IMG/VR virus record: IMGVR_UViG_3300020020_000173
Location: 1 to 21,102 of that record
Length of the DNA: 21,102 nucleotides
From: a virus
Strand: one strand, 5' to 3'
Position 1 is the first letter of the stretch, and the number at the start of each line of letters is the position of its first letter. The notes beneath the pieces are model-generated. The model saw only the letters and a program-made list of their open reading frames with translations. It made no database searches and was not told the origin of the DNA. The position numbers and the translations under genes are program-made. Positions 1 to 10,934 of this stretch are shown piece after piece.

Positions 1-167
1 CCAAGCTTGTAATGGGCATTGTCTCCGATATGCTGACCTTGGGCTCGGAAGTTCTTGGGATGACTTTCGCGCAATGCCTCCCGCAACACTTGCCATTGAC
101 TGGTCTGGAATAGGGCCTGACACCAGCCAACAAGCTGTTTATCGGAACGGAATTGGTCAAGAGTCAT
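1..167 (-). CDS. Small phage protein, C-terminus cut by window edge
   Basis: An open frame of 55 codons begins at ATG 167-165 and runs off the left edge without a stop. The start overlaps the TGA of the preceding glycosyltransferase by ATGA, as at most junctions of this operon, which argues that it is real and translationally coupled. The visible protein begins MTLDQFRSDKQLVGWCQALF and continues as a hydrophilic, probably helical chain with QWQVLREALRESHP. It resembles short 'MTLEQFR...' proteins that I recall from near capsid/scaffold genes of uncultured phages, but that is memory and not a search. Function unknown. No membrane segment or signal peptide is visible. If the family memory is right, capsid-assembly genes should follow to the left of the window. 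Confidence 0.75.
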   Translation of the reverse strand, partial: MTLDQFRSDKQLVGWCQALFQTSQWQVLREALRESHPKNFRAQGQHIGDNAHYKL

Positions 168-793
168 ATCCACTTATGAGGGTCTACCAAGTCGGGTTTG
201 GACGCAATCATTTCGTCGTAGGGCCGATTGCGCCCTTCATGGACAGGATGAAACACGATCTTCCTATCGGTAAAGTCGATGAAGTTATCTCCGAACTCGT
301 CTCGGAACCAATTGACGAACGCCGCATCCCAACGAGCATTGCCGATACGGAGATCCTCTGGCAGTACACGAGTCAACCTTCGCCAGATGTCTTGGCGGGC
401 GATAAAGATATCCCTGCCACGGTCATCTCCAAGAGTCGCCTCATCCCATTTACAGGTATTGGGGTCGAAATGGTAACGACGAGACGAGGCACAGACTTTC
501 CCCTTTGCCTGCATCATTCGCTCCAGGAATCGAATATCTGGACTTACTACAATATCAGCATTCAGAATGGCGGTGAACCCAGGCAAACTGCTGGCCATCG
601 CCACCATATTTTTTAGGGGCGGATATTGTTCGCTTGGAATGAACACCGTCTTGCGGCTTACAAGCTCCCTTTCCTCGGCGCCAAATAGCACAATGGCGCG
701 GGCCCATACCTCCCACGAACGCTTAGCCATAAGCTGGTTTCGCTTCCATTCCTCATCTTGGGCCAAAGGCCGGAATGAACTTACGGCATTCAT
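164..793 (-). CDS. Glycosyltransferase-like protein (GT-A fold), 209 aa
   Basis: This is a probable small nucleotide-sugar glycosyltransferase. The key signal is FTAILNADIVVSPD around residues 73-86, a hydrophobic strand ending in an Asp-containing N-A-D motif in the position of the GT-A DxD metal site. It is followed by a C-terminal half with SSRRYHFDP and a KIVFHPVHEGR segment typical of the end of the domain. No membrane segment or signal peptide is present, so it would act in the host cytoplasm. Its ATG overlaps the TGA of the upstream FkbM gene by ATGA, and its TGA overlaps the next start in the same way, so it is the last enzyme of a coupled sugar-modification cassette. The first strand of a classical GT-A domain is weak, so acceptor and donor cannot be named. 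Confidence 0.7.
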   Translation of the reverse strand: MNAVSSFRPLAQDEEWKRNQLMAKRSWEVWARAIVLFGAEERELVSRKTVFIPSEQYPPLKNMVAMASSLPGFTAILNADIVVSPDIRFLERMMQAKGKVCASSRRYHFDPNTCKWDEATLGDDRGRDIFIARQDIWRRLTRVLPEDLRIGNARWDAAFVNWFRDEFGDNFIDFTDRKIVFHPVHEGRNRPYDEMIASKPDLVDPHKWI

Positions 794-1479
794 TTAGGAC
801 GACAAAGCAGTTCTAATCCGCTGTCAGAGATTGATTCGTCCCCCATGACCACAGAGTAGGAATAACCCAACTTTTCCAAAAGGTCGTAGAGCATTTTGGG
901 TCTCACTCCATACCGAAATAACATAAGCGGGTTCATCTCAACCATCATTGCAGGACGACAGCGTTGGATTGTTTCAGTGGCTCCCCTGATAGCGAAGAAC
1001 TCAAACCCTTCCAAGTCTAACTTGATGAAACCCACATCTTGTAGGTGCAATGAATCCAGTGTAACAGCATTAACCATCACGTCCGATTGATCGATGCTGC
1101 TTAAGTGTGACGCACCCACGTTGGTGAAAGGACCAAGAGTGGATTTGCATTCACGATGGAACCAAAGCCCCTCATGCCGATCAGATAGTGCCAAAGGGTA
1201 AATATTAGCTCCGGGACAATTATAACGCAGGCATTCGACCATTTCCGGTCCAGGCTCAAAGGCGTGTACAAGCTCTGGGCTCCCAGCCTTTTCCATGTAG
1301 GCAATAGTATGGTCACCAAGGGCGGCACCGCCATCAACCACCTGCCTTCCGGGGGTGATGTGGGGCAGGTAATGCAGGGCAACACCATCGTCATGGCAGA
1401 GCTTTCCGCTCTCTTCGATCCACTCACAAAGCTGGTCTCTCTGGTCTAGCACCGCAATGCCATTTGGGAGAATCCTCAT
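790..1479 (-). CDS. FkbM-family SAM-dependent methyltransferase, 229 aa
   Basis: This belongs to the FkbM family of class I methyltransferases, which typically O-methylate sugars or polyketides. SAM motif I is VVDGGAALGDHT (residues 47-58), followed by the acidic strand HAFEPGP (72-78). The family hallmark strand IKLDLEGFE (about 152-160) precedes a VEMNP segment. I place the start at ATG 1479, giving MRILPNGIAV, because this ATG overlaps the TGA of the upstream methyltransferase by ATGA. An 11-codon longer frame from 1512 would overlap that gene by 37 bases. It sits between a Methyltransf_24-like enzyme and a glycosyltransferase, so its likely substrate is a sugar or glycan made by the cassette, for example a terminal hydroxyl on a virion or host surface glycan. 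The substrate is inferred and the family is clear. Confidence 0.9.
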   Translation of the reverse strand: MRILPNGIAVLDQRDQLCEWIEESGKLCHDDGVALHYLPHITPGRQVVDGGAALGDHTIAYMEKAGSPELVHAFEPGPEMVECLRYNCPGANIYPLALSDRHEGLWFHRECKSTLGPFTNVGASHLSSIDQSDVMVNAVTLDSLHLQDVGFIKLDLEGFEFFAIRGATETIQRCRPAMMVEMNPLMLFRYGVRPKMLYDLLEKLGYSYSVVMGDESISDSGLELLCRPK

Positions 1480-2222
1480 CGACGGACAAAGACCCCCAGG
1501 CTCGGGTTGCACTCCTTTGGATAACCATCACCCCATTCATTCAGGCAATCCACCTGTTCACAGGTTGGCAAAATATATCCATCGAGTTTAGTGCCAACAA
1601 GAGACAGGACATACGATCTGACTGGTGGCGGGGCGCGGTGGCTGGGAGTCTGCCACTCAGGCAGGTCATGCATCAGGATGATGGTGCCTTTACGTGTCAG
1701 CGGCCATAATGCCTCCAGTTCCTTGGTTGTATGCTCAACAGAATGGTCGCTATCCACGAACACTAAATCGAACGGCACCTCATCACCATAGAATTCGCTA
1801 ATCTTAAGCGACTCTGGGGTGGGTTGAGATTTGTGCCTAAGGATGTCCCTGAACTCGCGCTGTTCCCACCATGTCTTGTCATGGGCTGGCCGAAAGTCGA
1901 TGGACACAATCTTGGCTCCAGGCTTCCCGTATATAGCCCGCAGCATGTGCAGCGTGGTAAATCCGGTGCAGGTGCCAATTTCTAAGATCTTACGAGAATC
2001 CGTCATCGTGATGATGGCCTCTATGCACTCAGCGGTTTCTGGAGGGGTTATGAAACGAGGCTCGAATAGCGACTCGATCTTGGCCGTGATGGCAGCCCGA
2101 ATCGCCGCATTCTGCTTTCTCCGGGCCCACGCATCGCATTGCTCGGCGTACGGATTTGGACAGATTCCTACGCCATATCCATTGGCAGCAACTATCTTGG
2201 TTATCGCTTCGTGGTCAGTCAT
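1476..2222 (-). CDS. Class I SAM methyltransferase, Methyltransf_24-like, 248 aa
   Basis: A Rossmann-fold SAM-dependent methyltransferase of the Methyltransf_24/CmcI-like type. Residues 79-90 form motif I (ILEIGTCTGFTT), VSIDF (106-110) is the strand ending in the ribose-binding acid, and VFVDSDHSVEHT (154-165) followed by a MHD (184-186) is the characteristic metal/active-site region of this group. The first 60 residues are a helical extension with three cysteines in the protein's ends. The gene starts at an ATG that overlaps the glycosyltransferase TGA (ATGA) and ends overlapping the FkbM start, so it is translationally coupled to both. Related enzymes methylate sugars in antibiotic, LPS O-antigen and glycan clusters. 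With neighbours of that kind, glycan methylation is the best guess. No signal peptide or membrane helix. Confidence 0.87.
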   Translation of the reverse strand: MTDHEAITKIVAANGYGVGICPNPYAEQCDAWARRKQNAAIRAAITAKIESLFEPRFITPPETAECIEAIITMTDSRKILEIGTCTGFTTLHMLRAIYGKPGAKIVSIDFRPAHDKTWWEQREFRDILRHKSQPTPESLKISEFYGDEVPFDLVFVDSDHSVEHTTKELEALWPLTRKGTIILMHDLPEWQTPSHRAPPPVRSYVLSLVGTKLDGYILPTCEQVDCLNEWGDGYPKECNPSLGVFVRR

Positions 2223-3871
2223 TGCGCCATCCTTTCGGATTCCTCTGCACTTGCGACGTAATGCGGCTTTGTTTCGTTACCAAGGTAGCCCTCTATCTCT
2301 TTTCGGATCTGATCCGTAATCCCACCATGCGACCAGAAAGTTTTCTGTCTATCAGCCGGAGGCGGTGTCGTGTCCAGGTCAATCCAATGGTAACTGTGTC
2401 TGTGAAACCCCCAGGCGAAAGAGCCTAGCGTTGGATATTCAGCGAAGGTCTGCGGGAATTCATTTCGACCAGACAACACGTATGATTCAAACGGCTGGCC
2501 CTGTTTCTTCTCGATCCATCGCCGCATCTCAGGATACAGCCAGCGAGGATGGGCGCTTGGATGGCGGCACATCGTGTACATCTCCGCTTTTAGCTTAAGG
2601 GTCTTCTCCACCACAGCCTGCCACTGGGCACAATCGCTAATGACCTTGTTCACCGGGTCGTATAACCCAGCGTAACTGCGCCGCAACATGACCGGCTTAT
2701 CGTCTGTAATATAATTGTCCGGGGTGGTGTGAGTGTGGAAAATGCAATCGGCATCGATGTGAAAGATGATGTCGGATTCCTCGCACCACTCCTCTGCACG
2801 ACACTCCTGAACCATCTGGTGCAGTTTTCCCTTACCTGCTACCTCATCAAAGAACCTGAAGCGCAACATCGGGTGTTCGTAACAGGCCAACTTCTTGGCC
2901 TCCTCCGCGTCTTTGTGCGGCACCAGGATTACAATCTCAGTGAAGCCGTGAAGGAACTTGGTAAACCCACGAGCAGCATACTCCAGCCACTGGAAATCTT
3001 TGGCATGAGTCACTACCAGGATGCCAGATGTCCCCTTGTATTTGAGCGGTTTCTCCTCCCAAACTGCGGTGGGAGTAGAAGCAACCGCTGACACCCTTGG
3101 CGAGTCGGCTACCTGTGGAACCATCGCACTGGACGGGTCCGCGTAATAGATGCGTAATTGATCGATCAAACTACCATCTTTGCACCTATGGAATACGGCG
3201 AAGTTCAAGTCCACCAACCGCACGACATCTCGTGGATGAGTAAATGTCGGCAGTGCCCCCGATCCATTCCAGCACTTCCCATCTTCGGCCCTGATACACC
3301 AGCAATGCTGGAACAACTTATCAGCCGAATGCACCACGGACAGGATGTTGCCGGTATGCAGGGTCAACTCCTGACCCATCACAACATCCCATGCGGCTTC
3401 TTCAGTGCGAAAGGCTTGCTCGGAATATAAGGCTACGTTAGCCGGGTAAACCGCAGCCCCATTCATGTGTCCCATCCCATCAACGATGTGGCCCATGAAT
3501 GGCTTGCCAGCCTTCTCGTATTCCTTGGCGATGTCGCGCAGCCAATTGCTACGAATCGCCACTACGTCGGCTTCGATAAAGAACCACGGCTCATTAACCA
3601 CGGACGCAATGTAGCGGGCGCAGTTTTGCCAAGCCCAGTTGGGTGCGGCAGGCCAGCTTTTCTTAAGTGGAGCCGGATACCAAAGCGTAGTGACACCACT
3701 AAAATAACTTTCTGCCAGCCCCTTGAGCGCCGCCACCTTACTGGGAGGTGTTTGGTCGTCATGGGCGATGATTGCCTTAATAGCACTGGAACGGTCCAGC
3801 TCTTTCCACCAATGCATATTCTTGATGGCAAGATCGATGTCCTTATCGCAAGCGTGAATGACTACAACCAT
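2219..3871 (-). CDS. Two-domain glycosyltransferase, 550 aa
   Basis: The protein holds two consecutive GT-A-like domains. Domain 1 (about residues 1-250) opens with the strand MVVVIHACDKD and has WFFIEADVVAI near 97-107, with E-A-D in the place of a DxD metal motif. Domain 2 (about 280-550) opens with GILVVTHAKDFQWLEYAARG and carries DIIFHIDADCIF near 367-378, a good DxD motif. It resembles DUF6492-type glycosyltransferases. I chose ATG 3871, four bases after the upstream TAA. The longer frame from 3934 would overlap the previous gene by 59 bases. The end overlaps the methyltransferase start by ATGA. A bifunctional enzyme adding two sugars, or a duplicated catalytic/non-catalytic pair, would both fit. 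Expected to be cytosolic, since no membrane segment is visible. Donor and acceptor are unknown. Confidence 0.8.
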   Translation of the reverse strand: MVVVIHACDKDIDLAIKNMHWWKELDRSSAIKAIIAHDDQTPPSKVAALKGLAESYFSGVTTLWYPAPLKKSWPAAPNWAWQNCARYIASVVNEPWFFIEADVVAIRSNWLRDIAKEYEKAGKPFMGHIVDGMGHMNGAAVYPANVALYSEQAFRTEEAAWDVVMGQELTLHTGNILSVVHSADKLFQHCWCIRAEDGKCWNGSGALPTFTHPRDVVRLVDLNFAVFHRCKDGSLIDQLRIYYADPSSAMVPQVADSPRVSAVASTPTAVWEEKPLKYKGTSGILVVTHAKDFQWLEYAARGFTKFLHGFTEIVILVPHKDAEEAKKLACYEHPMLRFRFFDEVAGKGKLHQMVQECRAEEWCEESDIIFHIDADCIFHTHTTPDNYITDDKPVMLRRSYAGLYDPVNKVISDCAQWQAVVEKTLKLKAEMYTMCRHPSAHPRWLYPEMRRWIEKKQGQPFESYVLSGRNEFPQTFAEYPTLGSFAWGFHRHSYHWIDLDTTPPPADRQKTFWSHGGITDQIRKEIEGYLGNETKPHYVASAEESERMAQ

Positions 3872-3875
3872 AGTA

Positions 3876-4187
3876 TTACGAGAAACCGGATACCGGTATG
3901 GGTTGCCTGCCTGGCTCATAAGCCCAAACCTCATGCTTGGTTTTGCTTAGCATGAAAACATGCATCAGGTTCATCTTCCATTCGTTGGCCAGAGTTTGAT
4001 TTACACCATGAATCCACTCCTTGTATTGAGGGAATTCGACTGGAGTTGGATCGCCTCCCTCCCAGACTATTTTGGGACGGTGCTCCTGCCCAACGGATGG
4101 TTTGCCGTCAGTTGTGTAACGACAGCGCAGCCCCTTATCAAATTCCAGGACGAACTCTCTCATTTCAATTTGCAATCCTAATATCAC
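3876..4187 (-). CDS. Hypothetical protein, 103 aa
   Basis: I do not recognise this protein. It is a short soluble chain with an early MREFVLEFDKGLRCRY strand-like segment, a central PTPVEFPQYKEWIHGVNQ stretch and a C-terminal HVFMLSKTKHEVWAYEPG segment. The pattern suggests a small alpha/beta fold, without cysteine clusters, signal peptide or membrane helix. The reading frame opens with GTG at 4187, which overlaps the TGA of the zinc-ribbon gene by GTGA. An ATG at 4163 (MREFV...) is an equally possible start and would give 95 residues. Its stop lies four bases before the two-domain glycosyltransferase, so it is part of the same transcript. It could be an accessory factor of the cassette or an unrelated small phage gene. 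Confidence 0.65.
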   Translation of the reverse strand: MILGLQIEMREFVLEFDKGLRCRYTTDGKPSVGQEHRPKIVWEGGDPTPVEFPQYKEWIHGVNQTLANEWKMNLMHVFMLSKTKHEVWAYEPGRQPIPVSGFS

Positions 4188-4510
4188 TCTTTGCGCTCAA
4201 AGCCGCACTTTAGACATGAATAAACAATTGGATCGGAATACTCTGGCCCACTCTTATACTTCAACGGGAAGTGATTGCACTTTGGGCAAACGTTTGATTT
4301 TTTGCAGGCTGGGCAAAAGTGGACTGGCTTGCCTTTGAATTTGCCAGAAAACCAGCCAACCTTTTTAAGGACACAGGAAACCTGTCGCTCGATCCCTTTT
4401 GCGGTGTAAAAGTCGAAACGTTCTATTTCGTAACAAACTTCACCACAGTCAATAATTCCTATAATTTCCTTTTCGTCACACCAAACAGCAACCCCGTATG
4501 ATATGCTCAT
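4184..4510 (-). CDS. Small zinc-ribbon protein, three CxxC pairs, 108 aa
   Basis: The C-terminal half carries three CxxC pairs: CPAC (66-69), CPKC (75-78) and CLKC (99-102), the arrangement of a zinc ribbon or rubredoxin-like knuckle. Further cysteines stand at 11, 22, 26 and 46. The N-terminal half (residues 1-50) looks like a small beta-rich domain starting SYGVAVWCDEKEIIGI. The start ATG has a TGGAGA ribosome-binding site about 10 bases upstream, and the end overlaps the next frame by GTGA. GC is about 44 percent here, clearly below the neighbouring structural genes, which suggests recent acquisition. Such ribbons often bind nucleic acid or RNA polymerase, or simply stabilise a small fold. 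No specific role can be assigned. Confidence 0.72.
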   Translation of the reverse strand: MSISYGVAVWCDEKEIIGIIDCGEVCYEIERFDFYTAKGIERQVSCVLKKVGWFSGKFKGKPVHFCPACKKSNVCPKCNHFPLKYKSGPEYSDPIVYSCLKCGFERKE

Positions 4511-4669: not shown

Positions 4670-7003
4670 TTATTCCTCTTTAGATCCGTTCTTGTCTTTT
4701 ACGGCAGATTCGCGTTGTTGCAATTGAATCTTGGATGCGGATTGCAGATCGCTTATGACCATCTTTTGTCCACTTTGCAGGTCGCTATTACGCAGCTTTT
4801 GGTCGGCAGCCTGTTGGCGCAGTTGCATCTGATGCCGAGTCTTGGCTGCGGACAGGTCCAGTTTCGCCTTAGTTTCACTGGCCTTGAGGACAAACTCCGG
4901 GTCGGTGCCGCCATGAATGGCCTGAGCCCGCTGCATCGTCTGCTGTCCCTTTTGTTGCTCCATGGCCTGTTGTTCTAGCATCTTGCCCAACTTATCGTGG
5001 AACTGAGCCAAATCAGCCCAACGTCGTTGCATTTGTTCGACCACGTTTCCGCGAGTCGGATCGGCGCTGGCTTTCTCCAGGTGCTGCGCCAGGGCTGGCA
5101 TGATGGCATCTAGAAATGCGTAAACTTCTTGAGGATTGCCGCCTTGCTCCAAGCTCTTGGCGGCATCGCCTGCTGCGCTCAGGAACGTGCTGGCGAAGAC
5201 AAGGTTGTTCTGGGTGCCTGTGACTTGAGGTGGAACTCCGACCTTGGCTCCGGCCACTTGTGACACGGCAAAGGCGCGCTGGTCAGCCACGCTACTGCCG
5301 ATGTCGATGTCTGGATTATAGCGGTCAACCAAGGCTTGGCCGGCAATACTGGCGATGTAATCACTCAGTAGATTGTTACGGCCAGCCTCACTGGTCCACA
5401 GCGCCAGGGTGCCTAGTAATTTTTCCAGGCCCTGTTGGCGCATGAATTGGCTGCCCTGCCCAGTGATACGGGTGGCTTTGACCGATTCGATGTGTTCCAG
5501 AGCGATTCGTGGCACACCGCGTTTGGCGCATTTATCCTGGAATTGCTTGGCCAATCCGCCTCCAGGCTTGAATCCGTTCTGGCGAGGACAAGTGGCGCGC
5601 AAAAACTTCACTTCATAGAGCCGGTCCAACTGGTTGTAATAATGGTTGAGTTGGGTCTTGCCAAGGCGAGCCTGTTCGCTGGCACGGATGCTGGCTTCGT
5701 AAGCCGTGATTGGGTTGCCGCTCTCTTTGGTCAGTGATGGGGTATAGCTGGAAAGGTTGGAGGATACCAAACGACTCATCTCGCGGTGGAAAACAAGGCC
5801 ATCTTCGAGATAACTCCCGATGGGGATTTGCTGGACTTCGAACTGCGCTGGCACCTTCCCGTAATCGCCGAACTGGATGATGTTGAGTTGTTCGTTGGCG
5901 TTGGCCGTGGTTGGCCGGAAGAGGATCTTTGGCGCGAAAGTTTTGTCCGCAAGATTACACAGAAGCCGGTTCTGATATTCCATGGCAGAATACATCTTAA
6001 CCCCCATGCCGGTGACGGAATGGTGATAACCACCGCCGTCGTTGTCACTATACATGGGATGCACGATGTCCAACCATGACCGGAATCTGCCGATGTGCTG
6101 GAAGAGATAGTTAGTTTGTGTCTGCTGGAAGCCTTCGGGGTTTGGTACAACACAATGAGTGATACGTCCCTCTTCCTCACCTGGCAACGGGAACTCACGG
6201 AAGTAGTAATGCACGCACTGGATTACCTTGGATTGGGCCGAATACCAGTAGCTCTTGTTCTTGAGCATCTGCTGATGCCATTCCCAGGAGGAATACTGAC
6301 CACCGCTCTCAATCTTGGGGTGAGCCTGCATTATGGCTTGTTTGGTAGCCTCGATGTTCCAGCCCATAGCACGAGCGGCATCTTCTTTTCGTATGAAATC
6401 GTATAGTTCGGTGGCTTTGTAATCTCGCACTATTACGGCTTCCTCCCACCGGTTCACATCAGAGAGTGTGAAGTCTGAAACAATCAGGTTCTGATTAAGC
6501 ACCGCCTCGTTTCGCCAATCGCTGTCATCGGTAAATACAATTGGACCGGAACCGTAGAGTACCATCTCGTAATTGCTGATCTGGTTGACGTAATCCCATT
6601 GCGTGTCCTGCATCAATAACCACTGGAATTCTTCGGTAATGATGCGACTCCACATCTCTTGCTGGTCTGAGTTACCCCAGCCGGTGCGAATGGTGGCGAA
6701 GGACGGAGACTCGCTGAATACATCGTAATAGGCACCACGGGCCTGATTGAGATACATCTCGCTCACCCGCCAGTTGACGTTACATTGGTTGGCACGCCCC
6801 GCTCGCTTTAAATCCACGGCACGGTAAGGGGGGTTACCGTCAACCAGTCCCTTAACCAGTGCGCGCCGGCCAGATCGGCCCCTCTTCTCAGCATTCATCA
6901 TCTGCTGAATGCGGTAAGACGCCTCCAGGCAATCGCACATGCGGGTGTGTGGCACACGACCGTCTTCGGTCAGTGTCAGCAATCCATCGGTTCCTTCACT
7001 CAT
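4670..7003 (-). CDS. Portal protein, podovirus type, 777 aa
   Basis: The large portal (head-tail connector) forms the dodecameric ring through which DNA is packaged and ejected. Evidence is its length, its place one small gene after TerL, and the sequence character: an N-terminal helical region with RRALVKGLVDGNPPY, then NVNWRVSEMYLNQARGAYYD, a middle alpha/beta clip-like region and a long helical C-terminus. The last ~100 residues are Gln/Lys/Ala-rich, coiled-coil-like barrel sequence (QQKGQQTMQRAQ, RHQMQLRQQAADQ). I place the start at ATG 7003, MSEGTDGLLTL, because it overlaps the upstream TGA by ATGA. A 14-codon longer frame from 7045 would overlap that gene by 46 bases. It resembles the large portals of N4-like or other large podoviruses more than the ~500-aa siphovirus type. 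Confidence 0.87.
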   Translation of the reverse strand: MSEGTDGLLTLTEDGRVPHTRMCDCLEASYRIQQMMNAEKRGRSGRRALVKGLVDGNPPYRAVDLKRAGRANQCNVNWRVSEMYLNQARGAYYDVFSESPSFATIRTGWGNSDQQEMWSRIITEEFQWLLMQDTQWDYVNQISNYEMVLYGSGPIVFTDDSDWRNEAVLNQNLIVSDFTLSDVNRWEEAVIVRDYKATELYDFIRKEDAARAMGWNIEATKQAIMQAHPKIESGGQYSSWEWHQQMLKNKSYWYSAQSKVIQCVHYYFREFPLPGEEEGRITHCVVPNPEGFQQTQTNYLFQHIGRFRSWLDIVHPMYSDNDGGGYHHSVTGMGVKMYSAMEYQNRLLCNLADKTFAPKILFRPTTANANEQLNIIQFGDYGKVPAQFEVQQIPIGSYLEDGLVFHREMSRLVSSNLSSYTPSLTKESGNPITAYEASIRASEQARLGKTQLNHYYNQLDRLYEVKFLRATCPRQNGFKPGGGLAKQFQDKCAKRGVPRIALEHIESVKATRITGQGSQFMRQQGLEKLLGTLALWTSEAGRNNLLSDYIASIAGQALVDRYNPDIDIGSSVADQRAFAVSQVAGAKVGVPPQVTGTQNNLVFASTFLSAAGDAAKSLEQGGNPQEVYAFLDAIMPALAQHLEKASADPTRGNVVEQMQRRWADLAQFHDKLGKMLEQQAMEQQKGQQTMQRAQAIHGGTDPEFVLKASETKAKLDLSAAKTRHQMQLRQQAADQKLRNSDLQSGQKMVISDLQSASKIQLQQRESAVKDKNGSKEE

Positions 7004-7353
7004 AATGGCACTAGGGTATTCAGGCTGGCTTGACGCTGGGCGCAACCGTCGCAGCCCTGCAAGTTACTTCCGGTCATGTTATCGATAACCTTGGAGATGG
7101 GGTTTAGCACCACATGAACAATATCTCCCAATCCCCTAATAGCTTCTGTACAAACGCAATTGGGGGTGTTTCGGCAGATATTATCCTCGAATTCCTCGTT
7201 GTTCAGGACGAATCCGTTAGCCTTAACGTAGGCATCCACTTTATCGCGCAACAACGGAACGGTTATGGCTTGGAAGGTGGCTCCAGTTTGGGTGTGAACG
7301 TATATAAAGCCCTGGCCAACCACGTTGTCGGGGTAAGAAACACGCATTGGCAT
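7000..7353 (-). CDS. Hypothetical protein between TerL and portal, 117 aa
   Basis: I do not recognise a family. The protein opens MPMRVSYPDNVVGQGFIYVH, a short beta-like section, followed by a helical TVPLLRDKVDAYVKANGF stretch. The C-terminal half has four cysteines in two close pairs, CVC near residue 66 and CDGC near 101, which could bind metal. The gene starts one base after the TerL stop and its TGA overlaps the portal ATG, so it is translated with both. A position between terminase and portal suggests a role in packaging or head assembly. It is not an obvious small terminase: no helix-turn-helix was recognised and it lies downstream of TerL. No signal peptide or transmembrane helix. Confidence 0.7.
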   Translation of the reverse strand: MPMRVSYPDNVVGQGFIYVHTQTGATFQAITVPLLRDKVDAYVKANGFVLNNEEFEDNICRNTPNCVCTEAIRGLGDIVHVVLNPISKVIDNMTGSNLQGCDGCAQRQASLNTLVPL

Positions 7354-7354
7354 A

Positions 7355-9130
7355 TTAAATCAGTGCCTCCTGATATTGAGGTTCTTCATACGACACATTG
7401 GAGTATATCTGGTTTACTAATTCAAGTTCGTTATCAAACGCTTCTCGCGAACCTACTAAGCCGAGACCGGTTCCGCCAGCCAATGCGCTAAGGCGTTGGC
7501 GGCACAGTTCCACCATAACCGCCCAGGCGTCACCTTGGTCTGGACTAAATCCAAGCCGAGCACGCATGTCCTTCTTCGATTCAACGCAAACCTTGAGTCC
7601 TTCAGGGCCCTTGGCAGTTTCGTAGTGGCGAGATTTAAGTTCTCGGGCGAGATCCTTGGTGATGCCCCGAATCTGGCCGTACTTCATGAACTCCTTACCT
7701 ACCCACCACAGTTCCGACACACGCCGGTCAAACTGCGAATTGGCCATGAGCGTGTCGTTGGCTCGAACAAGGGTCGCACTTGGCGCACCGCTGAAGTTGA
7801 CTGGCAGCACCTGGGAGTTCCATTCCTCAGAGATAATCGAGTAGAGAGGCGCGCCAGCACCGGTCACGTCCAGAGCTGCGTACTGTGGGGCCACTCCAAG
7901 AGCGATACAGTTATCTCGGAACTGGCGGGCGATCTGATAGTCGCGAGGCACCCGCTTCATGGCGTCTTCGTGCAGGACCCGTATTTCGTCCACCTGAATT
8001 GTCCATACTCTGTCGATGGACAATCCGTAGCTACCCATCATTTGAACGGTGCGGTCCCCACCGTTGGAGAACGACGGGTCCATGGCGCTGATACGGGTGG
8101 GTGGAGCCAGCCAGATTATCTGTTTGTAAGCCTGACCAGCGAGCAGGTCTGCCTCAGTGTAAATCGAGTTATCGATGGAGATGGGCGCCTCGAAAGAACG
8201 GCACATCCTCCAGAACATGGCGCTATTCTCACCGAAATCCTTCTTGTGCGTGGCTAACTGCTTGGAGCCGTAAATCCAAGGGAACTCATCTCGACCCATG
8301 AGAATGTTTGGAGAGCGAGTACCATCGAAGCGAACGCAATAACCCTTCTCTGTCTCCCATTCGTCGGTATCGATGCTGATCGAGTCGTAACCATCTTTGG
8401 GTGCCACGAACTCACCAAATGGATCGTAGCGACTTTTGAAGTTGCTCATGGCCATGAACTGAAAGAACGGATTGGCCATTAGGTTGCCGAAACAAGCCGC
8501 CAGGATAGCCGGGGATAGTTCGGCCAATTCATCAGCGATGAATACAACTCGCTTATTCTTCCGCCCAATAAGCTTTCCAACCGCCTGAGCCTCCTTGCTG
8601 GGGGCAGCAGCAATCAGGAAGATTCCGGCTGTATCGTCGTGGTTACCATCTGCACGCACGGTTGGTATTTTACCCAACGAATCAATGAGCTTTCCTGGAA
8701 GCTGTGGAACGGCATTGAACATCTTGATTACACTCTTCCACACACGATGCTTGGCCTCTGACAAACTGGTGCTGGTAATGAAGACGTAGGTGTTCTGGGG
8801 ATCGGCTAGCCAGTTAATGATACCAAAGAGGGCTCCATACATCGACTTTCCAGACGAAGCGCATCCACTGAATGCGATGTGGGGCCGAGTGGCGCCAGTA
8901 ATTGGATGGGCGTGGGCACATTCATTCATCTTTTCAGCCCACGGATGCCAGATGAATGGTTCCTCGCTTTCGGGTCCATACAGGATTTCAGCTATGTTTT
9001 TGAAGTGTGCTGCTCCTCCCAAACCGCCTTGCTCAACTGTAAGGTCCAGTCGATAAGCCTCAAGCTCTACCTGTACTTGATCTAGAACGTCTGGGGATTC
9101 GATGCCGTACTCATAATGGTAGAGGGCCAT
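7355..9130 (-). CDS. terL: Terminase large subunit (TerL), 591 aa
   Basis: The DNA-packaging motor ATPase/nuclease. The N-terminal ATPase shows Walker A GCASSGKS (89-96), an adenine/coupling region after FITSTSLSEAKHRV, Walker B VVFIADELAEL with D200-E201 as the acidic pair, and a likely coupling motif MAMSNF (226-231). The C-terminal RNase H-like nuclease has three candidate metal-binding aspartates: D351 in AMDPSFSNGGD, D421 in AALDVTGAGA and D534 in SPDQGDAW. Length and motif order are normal for a complete terminase, and no frameshift is seen. It is the first gene of the minus-strand operon and is followed after one base by the 117-aa protein and then the portal. The small subunit is not adjacent, as the gene on the other side is a divergent tail fibre. 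Confidence 0.95.
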   Translation of the reverse strand: MALYHYEYGIESPDVLDQVQVELEAYRLDLTVEQGGLGGAAHFKNIAEILYGPESEEPFIWHPWAEKMNECAHAHPITGATRPHIAFSGCASSGKSMYGALFGIINWLADPQNTYVFITSTSLSEAKHRVWKSVIKMFNAVPQLPGKLIDSLGKIPTVRADGNHDDTAGIFLIAAAPSKEAQAVGKLIGRKNKRVVFIADELAELSPAILAACFGNLMANPFFQFMAMSNFKSRYDPFGEFVAPKDGYDSISIDTDEWETEKGYCVRFDGTRSPNILMGRDEFPWIYGSKQLATHKKDFGENSAMFWRMCRSFEAPISIDNSIYTEADLLAGQAYKQIIWLAPPTRISAMDPSFSNGGDRTVQMMGSYGLSIDRVWTIQVDEIRVLHEDAMKRVPRDYQIARQFRDNCIALGVAPQYAALDVTGAGAPLYSIISEEWNSQVLPVNFSGAPSATLVRANDTLMANSQFDRRVSELWWVGKEFMKYGQIRGITKDLARELKSRHYETAKGPEGLKVCVESKKDMRARLGFSPDQGDAWAVMVELCRQRLSALAGGTGLGLVGSREAFDNELELVNQIYSNVSYEEPQYQEALI

Positions 9131-9176
9131 TTAGGTGTTGAATGTGGGGGGGCGAGTGATAGCGTGCAATCACTTT
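9131..9176. promoter_or_regulatory. Divergent intergenic region between TerL and fibre operons
   Basis: Only 46 bases separate the TerL start from the chosen fibre ATG. This is the only space for promoters serving both operons, unless they lie within coding sequence. It contains a run of seven G (9146-9152). I see no convincing -35/-10 pair on either strand and no strong ribosome-binding site for the fibre, so the region is marked for its position rather than for a recognised motif. Confidence 0.35.
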
Positions 9177-10934
9177 ATGGCTGGAACTCTGCCAAGCCCA
9201 AACCAATGTTGCTCACCTTGCGATGACATCATCATCCAACAAATCTCTGGTCCAACAGGTCCAGCCGGGGCCAATGGCACTAATGGCGAAGACGGTGTAG
9301 ATGCGTTTACTCTCTTCACGGTTGACTTCACTATACCTGCTGAGCTTGGCACCGACACGGCCACCGTTAGTGACACCAGTTGGATGTCGATCAGCCAAAA
9401 GCTTTATGGGTCTAGAGCTGATGGAACCGTACATGCATTCTTCGAAGTAACAGCCATTGGCGGCTTAACGTCGGTTACGCTCAAGAACCTGGAGGATACT
9501 CCTACCAGTGCTTATATCGAGAACTCAGCTCCGGGCAGCATCCTAAACATAGGCTCCAAACTGATGCCTGCTGGCATTCAGGGGCCCGCAGGCACCACTA
9601 TAGGAGCGGCCAGCGGCGATCTCAAGGGCACCTATCCATCCCCAAAGATTGGTATCGGAAACACTCTGGGTTCAAGTCTGTGGGGTAATGGCACTGATAC
9701 GGTGGCTGTCCCAGCCGGAACCAACGGTCATATGGTGGCCTACGACTCCACAGATGCTGAAGGGGTTAAGACATTCAAGGCCTTACCGCTGACCGGAGAC
9801 ACAGACTTAGCCGATAATCGGGTGATGCGTGCTGATGGCGGAACCGGCCTTCCGGTACCAGCCCAACCAAGCAAGGTGACCATCACCGATAATGGGGCAG
9901 TCCGGGCAGATGGCAGCGGGGGAAATGCTCGCGGTGCAGACGCGATTGATTTGCAGGTGGTTCGAAGCGCCGTCACCCAGGTTGCCAGCGGCCTAGTTTC
10001 CACCATAGGCGGAGGCCAGAACAACACTGCCAGTGGTGATGGGTCAGTTATTCCAGGTGGTAGCGGAAATGTGGCCGCTGCCGCAAATAGCGCCATTGGC
10101 GGAGGAAATACCAACAGCATTACCGGAGTTGCTGTGGAAGGTGTCATTGCTGGAGGAGAGCTTAACATTTGCCAGACAGCCGAATCCTTCGTTGGAGGTG
10201 GACGACAGAATACGGCTGGTGACGGGGGCGGGGCCAATCAGCGGGCTACGGTGGTTGGCGGCGAGAACAACACTGCCAGTGGTCAGGAGAGCTTTATCGG
10301 TGGTGGAGACAGCAATACGGCCAGCGCCACCCAATCATCAGTGGTCGGGGGGGATAACAATGATGCCACAGGGGTGGAATCATTCGTTGGTGGCGGGGGC
10401 AGTAATACGGCTGGCGGCACTGACTCAGTGGTGGCTGGTGGACAGGATAATTCAGCGGCGGCGGATTACTCTGTAGTGCCTGGTGGACTACGCGCATCAG
10501 CCGATAAGTACGGCCAAGTGGCTCATGCTTCGGGTCAATTCCTAGCCGTTGGCGATGCACAAGCCAGCGAACTAATAGCCCGAAACAGCACCACAAACGC
10601 TACTCCGATTGAACTGTTCCTGGATGGGTCGGCCACGCGCATCACGGTGCCAGCCAGTAAAAGTTGGATGTTCCAGATCATGCTTGTGGCCAGACAAGAT
10701 ACGGGTCTGGATTCGATCTACAAGAGTGAGGGGATCATTCGTAACAATGCTGGCACAACCAGCGTCAACGCCGTCACCACCACTGAAATCTATGATGGCA
10801 TAGGATTGCCAGCCACGCCGGTCGTGGTGGATGCCGATGATCCAAATGATGCCTTGCGAATCACTGTGACGGGTGTGGCTGCAACCAATATCCGGTGGGT
10901 AGCTGTTATTCGGATAGCGGAGGTAAGCTTCTAA
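9177..10934 (+). CDS. Trimeric tail fibre, collagen-like and YadA-head-like repeats, 585 aa
   Basis: A receptor-binding fibre, probably a homotrimer. From MAGTLPSPNQCCSPCDD the order is: Cys-rich tip; a short collagen-like Gly-X-Y run (GPTGPAGANGTNG); a beta domain; a GDLKGTYPSPKIG motif of the kind found in many phage tail proteins; about eleven GGxxNxAxGxxSxVxGG repeats of 14-18 residues like the left-handed beta-roll head of YadA adhesins; and a C-terminal globular domain (about 460-585) with ELFLDGSATRITVPASKSW, a frequent phage fibre tip. A GTG frame begins at 9135, but ATG 9177 gives an N-terminus that fits the family better and leaves room for a promoter. It is first in the plus-strand operon, and its stop overlaps the next ATG (TAATG). 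Confidence 0.88.
   Translation: MAGTLPSPNQCCSPCDDIIIQQISGPTGPAGANGTNGEDGVDAFTLFTVDFTIPAELGTDTATVSDTSWMSISQKLYGSRADGTVHAFFEVTAIGGLTSVTLKNLEDTPTSAYIENSAPGSILNIGSKLMPAGIQGPAGTTIGAASGDLKGTYPSPKIGIGNTLGSSLWGNGTDTVAVPAGTNGHMVAYDSTDAEGVKTFKALPLTGDTDLADNRVMRADGGTGLPVPAQPSKVTITDNGAVRADGSGGNARGADAIDLQVVRSAVTQVASGLVSTIGGGQNNTASGDGSVIPGGSGNVAAAANSAIGGGNTNSITGVAVEGVIAGGELNICQTAESFVGGGRQNTAGDGGGANQRATVVGGENNTASGQESFIGGGDSNTASATQSSVVGGDNNDATGVESFVGGGGSNTAGGTDSVVAGGQDNSAAADYSVVPGGLRASADKYGQVAHASGQFLAVGDAQASELIARNSTTNATPIELFLDGSATRITVPASKSWMFQIMLVARQDTGLDSIYKSEGIIRNNAGTTSVNAVTTTEIYDGIGLPATPVVVDADDPNDALRITVTGVAATNIRWVAVIRIAEVSF
10005..10490 (+). repeat. YadA-head-like repeat array within the fibre gene
   Basis: Roughly eleven degenerate repeats of about 42-54 bases encode GGG.NN.ASG..S.VGG units. 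The Gly-Gly pairs recur at 14-18 residue steps, most regularly in the second half. Codon use varies between copies, so the array is old or kept apart by selection rather than freshly duplicated. Confidence 0.8.

Follow-up and report, generated by a model that had tools for sequence, protein, structure and literature searches.

Well-documented glycosylated phage particles come from few phages, chiefly mycobacteriophages. In Corndog-type phages, a gene for an O-methyltransferase and genes for three glycosyltransferases (GTs) lie between those for the portal and the capsid protease (PMC4351075), and passages of two articles that cite Freeman et al. 2023 report that these enzymes modify the capsid and the tail tube (PMC11600133, PMC12363180). 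The GTs gp108-110 of phage Che8 (Cluster F) are reported, in a passage of one of these articles that cites Freeman 2023, to glycosylate the capsid (PMC12363180). Here we describe a glycan-modification cassette that is located in the head operon of IMG/VR virus record IMGVR_UViG_3300020020_000173 and that is recurrent in an uncultured lineage. The window analyzed is the entire record of 21,102 bases, which is possibly a genome fragment. We estimate a probability of about 60% that the cassette carries out virion glycosylation and occupies a cargo slot between the portal and head-assembly genes.

The minus strand carries, in order, terL, a 117-aa gene, portal, two small genes, and then the cassette, wherein gtA, mt24, fkbM, and a 209-aa gene follow one another (Table 1). 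An earlier, sequence-only reading of this DNA had proposed a chain of four enzymes linked by ATGA overlaps directly downstream of terL and portal. Indeed, four consecutive genes are present, and each of the three junctions within the cassette is an ATGA stop-start overlap (2222/2219, 1479/1476, and 793/790), but the fourth protein could not be confirmed as a GT. Similarly, the cassette does follow portal, but "directly" is approximate because two small open reading frames (ORFs; 4510-4184 and 4187-3876) intervene. The G+C content and third-position G+C content of the cassette resemble those of terL and portal, and thus the cassette is no compositional outsider.

A fourth ATGA overlap (167/164) couples the 209-aa gene to a fifth gene, missed by the sequence-only reading, that leaves the window at its edge. 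The 55-residue start of its product aligns with the product of a small gene that precedes the scaffold-like gene of a related locus, L016 (10438-10722), with a local score of 102, whereas shuffled sequences score 22 ± 4 and none of 2000 scored as high. Therefore, the cassette lies between portal and the head-assembly genes, which is where the sequence-only reading had expected capsid genes. We predict that capsid genes follow just past the window edge.

The first enzyme of the cassette, gtA, had been described as a two-domain GT, and structural comparison agrees with this description, clearly so for the N-terminal domain. Searches of gtA against Pfam, PHROG, and NCBIfam yielded no significant match. 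However, an AlphaFold model built with 24 homologues shows a clear GT-A fold for the N-terminal domain (predicted local distance difference test, pLDDT, about 90), whose best structural alignments are with GT-A enzymes of the glycogenin/GT8-like type (Z 14.8, root-mean-square deviation [rmsd] 3.7, 204 residues aligned). An acidic motif of the D/ExD type, E121-x-D123, is at least 90% conserved across the 24 homologues. When the entire chain is used in Foldseek, the top matches are the bimodular GTs LH3, LARGE1, and chondroitin polymerase (K4CP), which similarly carry two GT-A-like modules per chain, although the likeness is at the level of fold only (~10% identity). These alignments cover residues 19 to 537 at high rmsd, and the C-terminal module is modeled with low confidence (pLDDT 30-80) because only two homologues were found for it. 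The start of gtA could also be placed at an in-frame upstream ATG at 3934, giving a protein of 571 aa, but most homologues start at the methionine encoded at 3871.

The two methyltransferase assignments made in the sequence-only reading are upheld by profile searches. The mt24 protein matches Pfam Methyltransf_24 (PF13578) over profile positions 1 to 104 of 105 (8.4e-20, 72.1 bits against a cut-off of 26.3) and Pfam RMNT_CmcI (1e-5), and its closest solved relatives are O-methyltransferases (1.7e-8). It also has one weak PHROG match labeled DNA methyltransferase (1.3e-6). The fkbM protein matches Pfam PF05050 (Methyltransf_21/FkbM; 1.2e-18, 68.3 bits against a cut-off of 22.7) and NCBIfam TIGR01444 (7.2e-20, 71.9 bits against a cut-off of 37.7). 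Searches with gtA, mt24, and the 209-aa protein against 50,697 phage records returned no match.

That last protein (164-793) had been called a small glycosyltransferase, an assignment we could not sustain. It is an orphan with no match in Pfam, PHROG, NCBIfam, or PDB, and with no relative in any phage, plasmid, or viral contig searched; comparison with phages at E values up to 10 gave chance-level matches only, and hhalign against the gtA family found nothing. Its single-sequence AlphaFold model (pLDDT 37.5) is unusable. By eye, the pattern I-N-x-DI ... RR ... WD hinted that the orphan might correspond to the C-terminal domain of a GT2 enzyme of locus L004, but 39 of 500 shuffled sequences score as high, and this candidate was rejected as not significant.

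A terL alignment search of IMG/VR recovered 80 loci, here numbered with the prefix L. The working set, of which the window is part, has 82 loci with a terL call and 64 with a portal call, and removal of near-copies left 29 non-redundant members for which portal is available, the window counted among them. Capsid and scaffold labels in these relatives derive from position, size, conservation within the lineage, and one weak scaffold profile match. In L016, whose terL is about 42% identical to that of the window, portal is followed by a two-domain GT, a sulfotransferase, an FkbM protein, a second sulfotransferase, a small gene, and then scaffold-like and capsid genes. The two-domain GT is 37% identical to gtA over the full chain and the FkbM protein is 33% identical to fkbM, and the genes flanking the latter (7740-8444 and 9121-9795) encode sulfotransferase domains (PF00685, 8.6e-7 and 7.6e-7). 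The presence of these two genes suggests that the virion glycans of such a phage may be sulfated. In L004 (terL 50% identical), portal is followed by a gtA-family GT, a GT2 enzyme, a GT2/methyltransferase fusion, a small gene, and scaffold-like and capsid genes. In more distant relatives, the gtA-family GTs are located between portal and terL (L005, L026, and L030) or flank terL on either side, accompanied by a GT9-like protein and a SAM methyltransferase (L007 and L085), and L045 has an additional GT47 (exostosin) enzyme. The sequence-only reading of a glycan-modification cassette within the packaging/head operon is supported: three of the four proposed enzymes hold, and relatives fill the slot with other sets of GTs, methyltransferases, and sulfotransferases.

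Slot contents vary among the 29 non-redundant members, and 14 of them have a GT no farther than 9 kb from terL, a count based on families seeded from this slot and on some labels assigned by inspection, such that other GT families may escape it. The cassette genes are not scattered in the relatives: their GT and methyltransferase families occur only near terL and portal, and L016 repeats the order of a GT followed by FkbM in the interval from portal to the pre-scaffold gene. Four GT and methyltransferase families have 87 members that lie no more than 5 kb from terL, and the other 314 kb contain none; as the families were seeded from the slot, this count means that these families are missing from the rest of the loci rather than that other GTs are absent. 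When mapped on a terL tree, GT presence requires about five changes, and gains or losses of the cargo have therefore happened several times. The window clusters there with L003, L004, L016, and L040, some of which sit on long branches and are placed unsurely. In L076, L080, and L088, a conserved 270-aa gene between terL and portal, metallophosphoesterase-like by eye and without a Pfam match, replaces the GTs. A tyrosine-recombinase/integrase gene lies divergently beside terL in L005 (8327-9541) and about 55 loci, an arrangement seen in most of the distant relatives.

We compared the window with Corndogvirus (Cluster O mycobacteriophages) by using Firecracker and Catdawg, which are close kin of Corndog. 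In both records the gene order is portal, O-methyltransferase, three GTs, protease, and capsid, with overlaps of 4 to 8 nt. As in these phages, the window has a mix of GT and O-methyltransferase genes with similar overlaps, situated after terL and portal (4670-7045) and before head-assembly and capsid genes, here represented by the pre-scaffold gene (1-167). In Corndogvirus, by contrast, the methyltransferase comes first, no FkbM protein is annotated, sulfotransferases are absent, and the host is Mycobacterium. The Che8 GTs differ further from the window, in that they are encoded at the far end of the genome, outside the head operon, with no methyltransferase annotated alongside. A third comparison is offered by the Manatee Spring phage MW202462 (MW202462.1; L091:6007-7072), wherein genes for a mannosyltransferase and an FkbM protein (33% identical to the fkbM of the window, 7e-21) lie immediately upstream of a terminase-portal-scaffold-capsid block. 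Unlike the window, this phage has an unrelated terminase (no match), its portal-profile scores are only weak, and its enzymes are two in number and encoded upstream of terL.

If the cassette glycosylates virions, its genes would be translated with the packaging and head genes through the ATGA overlaps, probably late in infection. In the simplest reading, gtA would draw on host nucleotide sugars in the cytoplasm to initiate a short glycan on a virion protein, to lengthen it, or both, an activity consistent with the fold of its N-terminal domain; the likeliest acceptor would be a fibre or the major capsid protein. The two methyltransferases would then O-methylate sugar hydroxyls and so cap the chain, a step to which their families (FkbM and Methyltransf_24) point, and the orphan would have a putative role in adding another sugar or in assisting. 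Such a glycan would change the surface properties of the particle, with effects on adsorption, stability, or shielding. By analogy, the cassette is a counterpart that would work like that of Corndogvirus, yet it is not a homologous member of that group.

Instead of decorating virions, the enzymes might alter the capsule, lipopolysaccharide, or O-antigen of the host during infection or lysogeny, such that a methylated glycan removes a receptor and blocks superinfecting phages. Bacterial loci for envelope glycans typically contain enzymes of the FkbM, Methyltransf_24/CmcI-like, and GT8-like kinds. Relatives also have a family resembling GT9 (heptosyltransferase), identified by weak profile matches, and some of them may be temperate, given that many encode a tyrosine integrase next to terL. 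We nevertheless regard modification of the host surface as unlikely. Gtr-type systems combine a membrane flippase and membrane GTs with neighboring integration genes, whereas in the four cassette proteins the highest 19-residue hydropathy is 1.35, with no span resembling a membrane segment, and no flippase or lipid-linked GT was recognized beside the cassette. Clustering found no integrase-family gene in the window or in the L004 and L016 loci, nor was a tyrosine integrase beside terL found in the window's own group, and a pattern scan for terL across 84,980 prokaryote genomes, which can miss relatives, detected no relative and hence no host or prophage. Moreover, coupling to a head-assembly gene through ATGA would mean that these are late genes. 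Taken together, position, this coupling, the absence of membrane segments, and the precedent set by Corndogvirus favor the virion over the host surface as the target. Still less probable, in our judgment, is that the portal-scaffold interval simply tolerates "morons" of varied purpose, such as nucleotide-sugar or metabolite modification, that share no link to the virion. Fibre-like genes (L017 and L038) and the 270-aa gene that lacks a Pfam match (L076 and L088) also reside in the interval, and about half of the relatives have no GT. On the other hand, the cargo is strongly biased toward glycan chemistry, with several unrelated GT, methyltransferase, and sulfotransferase families across relatives, and the remaining inserted genes are often fibre-like virion genes. 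Phage GTs are well known for base glucosylation, as when T4 glucosylates hydroxymethylcytosine, and GTs acting with methyltransferases could in principle decorate modified phage bases. We consider this highly improbable here, as the window has no recognized hydroxymethylase or base-modifying gene, the methyltransferases are members of O-methyltransferase-type rather than DNA methylase families (apart from the weak PHROG match of mt24), and the GT-A fold of the gtA N-terminal domain is unlike that of the T4 base glucosyltransferases, which are GT-B enzymes.

Several observations weigh against virion glycosylation. The GTs, methyltransferases, terL, portal, and capsid of Corndogvirus have no detectable homology to those studied here when Firecracker proteins are compared by BLASTP, profile hidden Markov models, and hhalign, and none was detected between the cassette and the Che8 enzymes; the precedent is therefore architectural only. 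The capsid gene itself lies beyond the window. That non-glycan genes such as those of L017 and L038 also enter the slot counts here too, and because about half of the relatives lack a recognized GT, the function is dispensable. Finally, an integrase-family gene is present in 20 of the 29 non-redundant members, which makes lysogenic host modification possible for the lineage.

The lineage appears to swap its surface chemistry, given the other enzyme sets found in the slots of relatives, two sulfotransferases among them. The same operon architecture, built with unrelated enzymes and exchangeable contents, suggests that a virion coating of modified sugars is a recurrent strategy. We advance more tentatively, as something that may well prove wrong, the idea that the head operon of this lineage maintains a slot dedicated to "surface chemistry," with swappable contents, that yields O-methylated particle glycans in the window and sulfated and methylated ones in L016, made by enzymes unrelated to those of mycobacteriophages. 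If true, phage virion glycosylation would have arisen independently and would be broad in environmental phages, and sulfated virion glycans would be a new chemistry. The analysis names gene sets that are open to expression and testing.

Table 1. Features of the 21,102-base window on which the analysis draws, with the Corndogvirus genes used for comparison.
Feature	Position	Strand	Basis
Start of next gene (ATGA-coupled, leaves window); small protein preceding scaffold and major capsid in relatives	1..167	-	Alignment to L016
Orphan, 209 aa	164..793	-	ORF; no library match
fkbM, FkbM-family methyltransferase	790..1479	-	Pfam PF05050; NCBIfam TIGR01444; L016 homologue
mt24, S-adenosylmethionine (SAM) methyltransferase, Methyltransf_24/O-methyltransferase (CmcI-rhamnosyl-OMT-like)	1476..2222	-	Pfam; solved structures
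gtA, two-domain glycosyltransferase, 550 aa	2219..3871	-	AlphaFold N-domain GT-A fold; Foldseek; L016 homologue
103-aa protein between portal and gtA, GTG start	3876..4187	-	ORF; no family match
108-aa Cys-rich, zinc-ribbon-like protein between portal and gtA	4184..4510	-	ORF; zinc-ribbon matches sub-threshold only
portal	4670..7045	-	Synteny; family conserved in 64 loci
117-aa protein between terL and portal	7000..7353	-	N-terminus by eye like Cys-rich proteins at the same place in L016 and L040
terL, terminase large subunit	7355..9130	-	Walker A ASSGKS, Walker B FIADE; family in 82 loci
Divergent fibre-like gene, short collagen-like Gly-X-Y run followed by beta-roll-like repeats	9135..10934	+	Sequence
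Corndogvirus cassette genes: Corndog gp35-38; Firecracker gp33-36; Catdawg gp33-36			

Among the flanking genes, portal has no direct match in Pfam or PHROG, and a portal profile searched against PDB gave nothing meaningful. The terL protein is also without a direct family match, but its 42%-identical homologue in L005 matches the phrog_2 terminase (2.3e-10). The divergent fibre-like gene has homologues in L002 to L004, and a similar gene occupies the same place in L040. In L002 this gene is 89% identical to that of the window, whereas terL is 98% identical, and the fibre-like gene therefore evolves faster. Its product is a conceivable candidate target for glycosylation. A link between the LH3-like fold of gtA and the collagen-like run of the fibre was left as speculation, as the general GT-A fold is all that the two GTs have in common. 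Two relatives have a terL gene that appears to be interrupted by an intein: in L040 (8726-11506) the interruption falls at the Walker A motif, with an Intein_splicing match (2.4e-6) below the curated cut-off, and in L038 (4967-7921) it carries Hint and homing-endonuclease domains.

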